A program made the translations under genes and the position numbers. From Candidatus Coatesiibacteriota bacterium (GTDB lineage Bacteria > RBG-13-66-14 > B26-G2 > WVWN01 > G020348885), in contig CP070755.1 in NCBI GenBank assembly GCA_020348885.1, positions 1,963,614 through 2,006,944 of the forward strand: a stretch of 43,331 nucleotides of DNA, read 5' to 3'. The notes beneath the pieces are model-generated. The model was not told where the DNA came from. It did not search any database and saw only the letters and a list, made by a program, of their open reading frames with translations. Below, piece by piece: positions 31,311 to 33,168 of the stretch (position 1 is the stretch's first letter; every line of letters begins with the position of its first letter).

Positions 31311-31499
31311 ATGCCGCTATACGGATACGTATGCGACGACTGCGGGAAGGTTTTCGAGGTGCTGGTTTTCGCCGGTACGGACAGGGATATTAGTTGCCCG
31401 GATTGCGGCTCCGGCGACGTGACGAAACTAGTGTCTTCTTTCTCGACCGGCGGCTCCGGCTCCAGTTCCGATTCCTGCGGTTCTAAATACTTCAGTTGA
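31311..31499 (+). CDS. FmdB-type zinc ribbon protein, copy 1
   Basis: A 62-residue soluble protein of the FmdB/CxxC_CXXC_SSSS family. MPLYGYVCDDCGKVFEVLV gives the first CxxC (residues 8-11) and ISCPDCGSGDVTKLVSSF the second (28-31), followed by the Ser/Gly-rich tail typical of the family, here with another Cys (SDSCGS). Members are thought to be zinc-binding regulators or accessory proteins; function is not established. AAAGGAGAG precedes the ATG. Confidence 0.88.
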   Translation: MPLYGYVCDDCGKVFEVLVFAGTDRDISCPDCGSGDVTKLVSSFSTGGSGSSSDSCGSKYFS

Positions 31500-31542: not shown

Positions 31543-31770
31543 ATGCCCGTTTACGAATACACCTGCGAAGAATGTTCGAACTGCTACGAAGCCCTGGTTC
31601 GCGAAGCGGACGCCGAGGGCCGCGTTACGTGTCCCAAGTGCGGCTCGACTCGGAAACGGCGCCTACTCTCGGTCTTCGCCGCGGCGTCGGGCGGGCATAT
31701 TACTTCCGCCGGCGGCGGGGGCTGCTCGTCGTGCGGCCAATCGAGTTGCGGTAGTTGTAGTCATCGATAA
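31543..31770 (+). CDS. FmdB-type zinc ribbon protein, copy 2
   Basis: A 75-residue paralog of the preceding gene: MPVYEYTCEECSNCYEALV with the first CxxC at residues 8-11, and VTCPKCGSTRKRRLLSVFA with the second. The tail is different and Cys-rich (GGCSSCGQSSCGSCSHR), giving extra CxxC-like pairs that could bind a second metal. Only a weak ribosome binding site is visible. The two copies are separated by 43 bases holding a CGCGCG palindrome (31513-31526). Confidence 0.88.
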   Translation: MPVYEYTCEECSNCYEALVREADAEGRVTCPKCGSTRKRRLLSVFAAASGGHITSAGGGGCSSCGQSSCGSCSHR

Positions 31771-31981: not shown

Positions 31982-32953
31982 ATGGCCGAAGGTGGATACG
32001 AACTCGTTATCATAGGCGGGGGACCGGCTGGTTTGACGGCGGGGATATATGCGTCCCGTTCCCGGTTGAAGTGCGTACTGCTGGAAGCGAACCCGCTGGT
32101 CGGCGGACAGGCCGCTCTCACCGATATAGTCGAGAACTACCCGGGCTTCGACGAGCCGATTAACGGGTTCGAGCTGACCGAGAAGATGCGGAAGCAGGCC
32201 GAACGGTTCGGCCTTGAGGTGCGGAACGAACCTGTAAACCGTGTCGATAAGGTCGGTGAAGACTTCATAGTCTACACGGGTAAGGGCGAGTATCCGACCG
32301 AGTCGATAATCGTCGCCACCGGTTCCGAACCGCGGCACCTGGGCGCGCCGGGAGAGAAAGAGCTCCGCGGCGGCGGCGTAACCTATTGCGCCACGTGCGA
32401 CGGGCCGTTGTATAAGGAGATGGAAGTAGCCGTCGTAGGCGGCGGCGACAGCGCCGTGGGCGAGGCCCTTTACCTGACACGATTCGCGGGTAAGGTTTAT
32501 ATAATCCACCGCCGGGACCGGTTTCGAGCCGACGGGATACTTTCGGAACAAGCGATCGCCGACGACAAGATCGAGATAATCTGGGACACCGTCGTGACGT
32601 CGATTCACGGAGAAGGCGAAGTCGAGCACCTCCACCTAAAGAACGTGAAGACCATGGAGGAGTCTACGTTGGACGTAGCCGGCGTTTTTATCTACGTAGG
32701 TGTAAAACCTAATACCGAGTTCTTGGGTGGCTTACTCAAGTTAGATGACCGGGGGTTTATCCTCACCGACGATCGGTTGGAGGCTTCGGTCAGGGGTGTC
32801 TTCGCGGCGGGCGACTGCCGGTCCAAGGTGTTGAAGCAGATTGCGACGGCCGTAGGCGAGGGCGCGACGGCCGCTTTCGTTGCAAACGAGTACATTCAGG
32901 AACGGCGCCATAAAAGGGCCGAGACAGAGTCGTTGGGCTACGACCAGAAGTAA
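31982..32953 (+). CDS. trxB: thioredoxin reductase
   Basis: A 323-residue flavoprotein that reduces thioredoxin or a related dithiol carrier with NADPH. FAD-binding GGGPAGLTA is at residues 12-20; the redox-active CATC is at 136-139 (YCATCDG); the NADPH site has VVGGGDSAVGEALYL (151-165) and HRRDRFRA (176-183); the second FAD motif is GVFAAGDCR near 287. Length and order match low-molecular-weight bacterial TrxR. No thioredoxin gene is nearby. AGGGGAG precedes the ATG. The downstream neighbour, 26 bases away, is the putative selenoprotein at 32980, which suggests a shared redox role. Confidence 0.93.
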   Translation: MAEGGYELVIIGGGPAGLTAGIYASRSRLKCVLLEANPLVGGQAALTDIVENYPGFDEPINGFELTEKMRKQAERFGLEVRNEPVNRVDKVGEDFIVYTGKGEYPTESIIVATGSEPRHLGAPGEKELRGGGVTYCATCDGPLYKEMEVAVVGGGDSAVGEALYLTRFAGKVYIIHRRDRFRADGILSEQAIADDKIEIIWDTVVTSIHGEGEVEHLHLKNVKTMEESTLDVAGVFIYVGVKPNTEFLGGLLKLDDRGFILTDDRLEASVRGVFAAGDCRSKVLKQIATAVGEGATAAFVANEYIQERRHKRAETESLGYDQK

Positions 32954-32979
32954 TAGATTTTTAATTCCGTGGAGGATAA

Positions 32980-33168
32980 ATGTTAATTGCGTTAAAAATA
33001 GCGGGCGGGTTGTTTCTGGGCGGCGTGCTCGGTTATGGATACTACTTCATCGCTAGGTGCGCCGGCTCGAGTTGAGGCGTCAGCGGTAACCCCTACGTCT
33101 CCGTCGTACTCGGGGCCGTGCTGGGGTTGCTCGTGGTCACGGGCAGTGGCTGGGGCTCGGGGAATTAG
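32980..33168 (+). CDS. DUF6132-like membrane protein, candidate selenoprotein (in-frame TGA = Sec)
   Basis: A 62-residue product if TGA at 33073-33075 is read as selenocysteine. GGAGG stands just before the ATG. Residues 5-24 form a Gly-rich transmembrane helix ending GYGYYFIARC; then comes C27-x4-U32 and GVSGNPY; residues 38-54 form a second helix (YVSVVLGAVLGLLVV); the frame closes at TAG. As I recall the family, DUF6132 proteins have the same plan: two helices bracketing C-x4-C followed by S-(N/S)-P. The TGA stands exactly where the second Cys belongs. Without readthrough the peptide would be 31 residues and the conserved half would be untranslated. It follows trxB by 26 bases. Confidence 0.72.
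33081..33123 (+). promoter_or_regulatory. SECIS-like hairpin downstream of the in-frame TGA
   Basis: An imperfect hairpin within the coding frame: CAGC (33081-33084) with GCTG (33120-33123), GG with CC, CCCC (33090-33093) with GGGG (33112-33115), then TACG (33094-33097) with CGTA (33105-33108) closing the loop TCTCCGT. The apical loop starts 22 bases after the TGA, within the spacing usual for bacterial SECIS elements. If the G-C closing pair opens, the loop begins with G, as the bacterial element prefers. Confidence 0.55.

Follow-up and report, generated by a model that had tools for sequence, protein, structure and literature searches.

The analysed DNA, called the window below, is a 43,331-nucleotide (nt) stretch of a Candidatus Coatesiibacteriota genome (contig CP070755.1), and it carries a short gene with an in-frame TGA that very probably encodes a selenoprotein. 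Read directly from the sequence, the gene starts with an ATG at 32980, runs for 31 codons to the TGA, and continues in the same frame for 30 more codons to a TAG at 33166–33168. It follows the end of a trxB-like gene on the same strand by 26 bases (Table 1). An earlier note, made from the letters alone, had described the ribosome binding site, the ATG, the 31 and 30 codons around the TGA, the final TAG, the distance to trxB, and a cysteine (Cys27) spaced by four residues from the TGA at codon 32; each of these descriptions agrees with the sequence. With U standing for selenocysteine (Sec), the motif of the window protein is C27-x4-U32...N37-P38. It lies between two predicted helices and fits the C-x4-C...(N/S)P pattern of DUF6132.

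Table 1. Features of the DUF6132-related gene and its surroundings in the window.
Feature	Coordinates	Strand	Evidence or remark
GGAGG ribosome binding site	32971..32975	+	4 bases 5′ of ATG; sequence
62-residue DUF6132-related candidate selenoprotein gene, TGA probably read as Sec, TAG stop	32980..33168	+	homologues, alignment
Cys27 codon TGC, invariant partner of the putative Sec	33058..33060	+	invariance in alignment
TGA codon 32, probably read as Sec; equals second Cys of C-x4-C in Cys homologues	33073..33075	+	homologue comparison
Predicted transmembrane helix 1, residues 2–28	32983..33063	+	AlphaFold2 model
Predicted transmembrane helix 2, residues 38–59	33091..33156	+	AlphaFold2 model
Putative bacterial selenocysteine insertion sequence (bSECIS) hairpin, window copy; loop 33104–33110, marginal alone	33083..33134	+	RNA fold
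trxB-like NAD(P)H thioredoxin reductase, CATC motif	31982..32953	+	Pfam Pyr_redox_2, E 1.8e-54

When the read-through protein was searched against six-frame translations, all four genomes examined from the order (G001–G004) yielded homologues (38–48% identity, E 2.5e-9 to 2.7e-6), each with exactly one internal TGA, at the column of the window TGA. In the homologues of G058 and G017 a Cys is aligned with this column, which is where the earlier note had looked for one. Across 386 genomes, PF19628 matched 13 sequences over the cut-off; G277, G299 and G364 have a TGA at the column and the others do not, the genes of G294 and G218 using TGA as the terminal stop only. The DNA pattern C-x4-U-x4-(N/S)-P-W-x5-G-x3-G was then scanned over about 85,000 species. 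It gave 56 matches, 16 of them homologous by profile score (37–81 bits), while the remaining 40, at 21 bits or less, were rejected as chance. The scores of L148, L162, L145 and L184 are circular because these sequences were in the profile that later found them. The records of the 16 loci are titled Delongbacteria, UBP11, Fermentibacteria, Dehalococcoidia, Cloacimonadota, Deltaproteobacteria, Coatesbacteria/Zixiibacteriota, 'Geobacter', Bacteroidales and one unnamed bacterium. When near-copies are counted once, the form with TGA at the column (the Sec form) is present in 17 distinct genomes, in records titled Coatesbacteria/Zixiibacteriota, Delongbacteria, Fermentibacteria, Cloacimonadota, Dehalococcoidia, UBP11 and Deltaproteobacteria. 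This count leaves out L170 (Bacteroidales, 37 bits), whose frame closes 9 codons before the TGA; at L170:4686-4756 the TGA stands at the DUF6132 column (PUPLTSNPW), perhaps with a frameshift. The Sec loci L151 (Cloacimonadota title) and L175 (Geobacter title) are near-identical, and one of the two bins is probably mislabelled or contaminated.

Purifying selection acts on the codons that follow the TGA. In an alignment of 14 Sec forms, G18, C27, U32, P38, G45 and G49 are invariant, and the spacing C-x5-U in G277 is the sole exception to C-x4-U. The ratio of nonsynonymous to synonymous substitution rates (dN/dS) after the TGA is 0.10–0.47 across groups, values that are rough because the genes are short. 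Within the Coatesbacteria set, pN/pS is 0.57 after the TGA and 0.66 before it, so that the constraint is alike on both sides. Together with the frame and the TGA kept in all four genomes of the order, this constraint bears out the claim that the second half of the gene is coding.

The genome of the window possesses selA (409.6 bits), a SelB with SelB beta-barrel and wing_3 domains, and a selD (C1:267282-268208) that has an in-frame TGA at its catalytic position (AGUASK) and is itself a Sec protein. In G001–G004, the gene and selA are about 3.3 kb apart. The tRNA-Sec was detected in all ten relatives searched, at 64–78 bits, and ARAGORN confirmed the TCA anticodon in all eight that were checked. 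Among the more distant carriers of the TGA, G277 and G364 have selA, and G299 has a tRNA-Sec at 76.8 bits.

A bSECIS is limited to a loop of 3–9 nt, a G in the first two loop positions, and a spacing of 16–37 nt from the UGA (PMC13188914). A hairpin with a perfect stem of at least 6 bp, a G in the first two loop positions and a loop 17–20 nt after the UGA occurs in 13 of 18 Sec forms. None of the 11 Cys forms has such a hairpin, the longest stem at the same position being 4 bp. The hairpins come in three kinds of register: CCCU-GGUC-AGGG is found in four unrelated lineages, CCCGUG-GCU-CACGGG in Coatesbacteria with a variant in L136, and GAAUCC-GUG-GGGUUC in Delongbacteria. In shuffle tests of the 13 hairpins, 0.2–8% of shuffles were as good, which is not overwhelming for any single hairpin, and the argument for a SECIS therefore rests on the contrast between Sec and Cys forms.

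The neighbourhood of the gene is linked to thioredoxin. Sec forms adjoin trxB in Coatesbacteria and a run of thioredoxin, exported thioredoxin, OsmC and ArsR genes in Delongbacteria and the UBP11 type; in Dehalococcoidia a thioredoxin gene lies further upstream, and peroxiredoxin-like open reading frames (ORFs), read by eye, are near the gene in G277. For the Cys forms, where neighbours were assigned mostly by eye and in part checked with Pfam, thioredoxin is next door in G157, G218 and G118, a metallo-beta-lactamase/rhodanese-type gene adjoins in G216 and G066, and trxB, rubrerythrin and a thioredoxin-like ORF are the neighbours in G142. Several other genes were observed around these loci. 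Two FmdB-type zinc ribbon genes (Zn_ribbon_8) stand in tandem at 31311–31499 and 31543–31770 of the window, just upstream of trxB. On the opposite strand, at 922–2080 relative to the gene in L214 and downstream of it in L163, an ORF resembles by eye tRNA 2-selenouridine synthase (rhodanese plus P-loop). In G001–G004 the first gene is followed by another small ORF that also contains an in-frame TGA (about 1672–1861 of L016 in G002; ...ADCVT-U-ASQGSPWVTG...), which is absent from the window. Its TGA and a 7–9 bp hairpin 21 nt after the TGA are kept in all four copies, the Cys only in G002, and weak BLASTP similarity suggests a paralogue in tandem with the first gene.

AlphaFold2 places C27 and U32 at the junction of the two helices, with a mean predicted local distance difference test score of 70.6 and a predicted template modelling score of 0.40. 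A fold search of the PDB gave no match at E≤0.001, and the charges are few and mixed, so that they do not settle the topology. The Pfam profile PF19628, which is independent of the partly circular profile above, matches 13 of the 14 aligned Sec proteins at E≤1. The Cys form of G058 is a clear DUF6132 member at 38.7 bits, and the orthologue in G004, a Sec form, reaches 24.3 bits against a gathering score of 23.2. Membership is thus supported for the family, which the window protein would join through its relatives in the order. On a tree of 29 rows, Sec requires at least two changes, with two Sec sets of the types 'RC-x-G-x-x-U' and, in Delongbacteria, 'IGC-x-x-G-G-U'. At least two changes between Cys and Sec are tentatively suggested, since the count is based on only 60 residues.

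From the TGA kept at a Cys column, the selection on the codons behind it, the sel genes except selC, the hairpins and the neighbourhood, we infer that UGA codon 32 of the window protein is, with high probability, decoded as Sec. The TGA in 17 genomes, the Cys column and the presence of selA, selB and selD support the proposal of the earlier note that a membrane protein with a Cys-Sec pair is produced by Sec insertion. The product would be a membrane selenoprotein of 62 residues and two helices and would represent DUF6132 in its Sec form, with SelB and Sec-tRNA reading the UGA under the guidance of the hairpin that closely follows it. In the loop that joins the helices, Cys27 and Sec32 could form a selenylsulfide, and the second Cys of the family is likely the reactive residue, because the Cys-to-Sec exchange marks it. 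Because many lineages have trxB or thioredoxin genes next to this gene, the thioredoxin system may reduce the pair, and the protein might act at the membrane as a thiol/selenol redox relay or as a handler of sulfane sulfur (persulfide). A thioredoxin-linked redox role is rather more plausible than otherwise; the topology in the membrane, the partner in the redox reaction and the substrate are likewise predictions. A further and doubtful proposal is that this family of about 60 residues uses its Cys-Sec pair in a two-helix membrane hairpin to ferry reducing equivalents or sulfane sulfur between the thioredoxin system of the cytosol and an exported thioredoxin, as a minimal selenium relay that arose from DUF6132 at least twice.

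Several observations weigh against this interpretation, and the SECIS of the window protein itself is the weakest part of the case. The window copy does not have the short hairpin of its relatives. Shuffles do as well as its 56-base fold (z 0.15), and its 64-base fold (minimum free energy −27.9, z −1.71, 15 of 200 shuffles as good) is only marginally better than they are. In its best structure a long stem carries the apical loop about 27–28 nt after the UGA, and one pair has to open, making a 9-nt loop that starts with G at 27 nt, before the published limits are satisfied (PMC13188914). The SECIS-like hairpin of the earlier note is thus borne out in part for the window copy, by the longer of the two folds, and its exact geometry is not well supported, the loop lying at about 27–28 nt and not at the 22 nt proposed. 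In addition, the window genome gave no selC in searches with Rfam, a covariance model specific to the order, two DNA patterns and BLAST with the selC of a relative. The matches obtained in these searches were other tRNAs or a coding stretch, and an ARAGORN call beside selA is false, as it lies inside an ORF read as queA. Of the sel genes that the earlier note hoped to see, selA, selB and selD are present, and selC was not located in this assembly though present in the ten relatives. Its lack is tentatively attributed to the assembly, in which a gap is possible: the record consists of one contig, and its completeness is estimated at 90%. Furthermore, no selA over the cut-off was found in G299, and the window protein is the one aligned Sec protein that PF19628 does not match in the Pfam profile search, so that the DUF6132 assignment made earlier stands for the family and not for this protein taken singly. 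The thioredoxin-linked role is deduced from gene neighbours only.

That selC was not located in this assembly and that the window copy has a weak SECIS speak for the TGA being a true stop, in which case the gene would encode a 31-residue peptide with one helix, followed by an untranslated stretch or a pseudogene remnant. However, the second half is conserved in many lineages, with P38, G45 and G49 invariant and dN/dS well below 1, and the next in-frame stop falls where the homologues end. Termination at codon 31 is accordingly very improbable. Since the Sec reading is drawn from sequence, the TGA could alternatively be read as tryptophan, glycine or near-cognate Cys by recoded or leaky decoding. 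The chance of this is slighter again, as TGA serves as an ordinary stop elsewhere, ending 3 of the 20 long ORFs of the window and the same gene in G001–G003, and the Cys-to-TGA exchange, the sel genes and the hairpins point to Sec. A sequencing or assembly error that turned TGC or TGT into TGA, a concern of the earlier note as well, might be considered for a window genome known from a single assembly, but it is refuted for the family by the same TGA in independent assemblies of 17 genomes, and its probability is negligible.

It is also conceivable that the protein is a selenoprotein that binds or transports a metal or metalloid, in the manner of MerT or SaoC, with no link to thioredoxin. ArsR-type regulators adjoin some of the loci, which speaks in its favour. 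Nevertheless, no metal transporter, MerA/MerB or arsenic gene was recognised next to the gene in the loci read, where thioredoxin, trxB, OsmC and rhodanese-type neighbours dominate, and a metal function is unlikely.

Neither Table 1 of a 2026 review, with its 119 families of prokaryotic selenoproteins (PMC13188914), nor a selenoprotein list of 2022 (PMC9312934) includes DUF6132, in accord with the remark of the earlier note that this is not a textbook selenoprotein. No credible match to the family was obtained among the NCBIfam models of June 2026. A full-text search for DUF6132, PF19628 or Sec proteins in these phyla, with most subscription papers and all preprints outside its scope, returned no relevant paper, and no published function for DUF6132 was found in the literature searched. 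The same Sec arrangement across several bacterial phyla therefore appears to represent a selenoprotein family not found in the catalogues searched. It would add one family to the approximately 119 catalogued in prokaryotes, mostly in uncultivated phyla, whose members standard gene calling would cut at codon 31. DUF6132 also gains a testable role, as the operons name thioredoxin as its likely partner.

In the bSECIS of E. coli fdhF, a GGUC-type loop tops the hairpin about 20 nt downstream of the UGA. The hairpins of L184, L113, L168 and L151 resemble it in loop type and distance, whereas the window copy has a longer stem and a loop 27–28 nt away. Small or membrane selenoproteins already catalogued include the MerT-like mercuric transport protein, YeeE/YedE, SaoC and DUF466/KCU-star, which share with the window protein a bacterial origin and a UGA-encoded Sec, putative in the window protein, several of them being membrane or transport proteins (PMC13188914). 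The window family differs from them in that it has no sequence match to any NCBIfam selenoprotein model and its C-x4-U motif is not in Table 1 of the review (PMC13188914). Its closest counterparts are the Cys forms of DUF6132, such as that of G058. Like the Sec forms, these have about 60 residues, two predicted helices, G-x3-G spacing, C-x4-C followed by (T/S)-(S/A)-N-P, and thioredoxin or rhodanese neighbours. They differ in the second Cys, which is replaced by the putative Sec in the Sec forms, and in the codons behind it: P-W-(S/G/L/F) codons are shaped into a hairpin in most Sec forms, whereas the Cys forms mostly have P-W-I-S.
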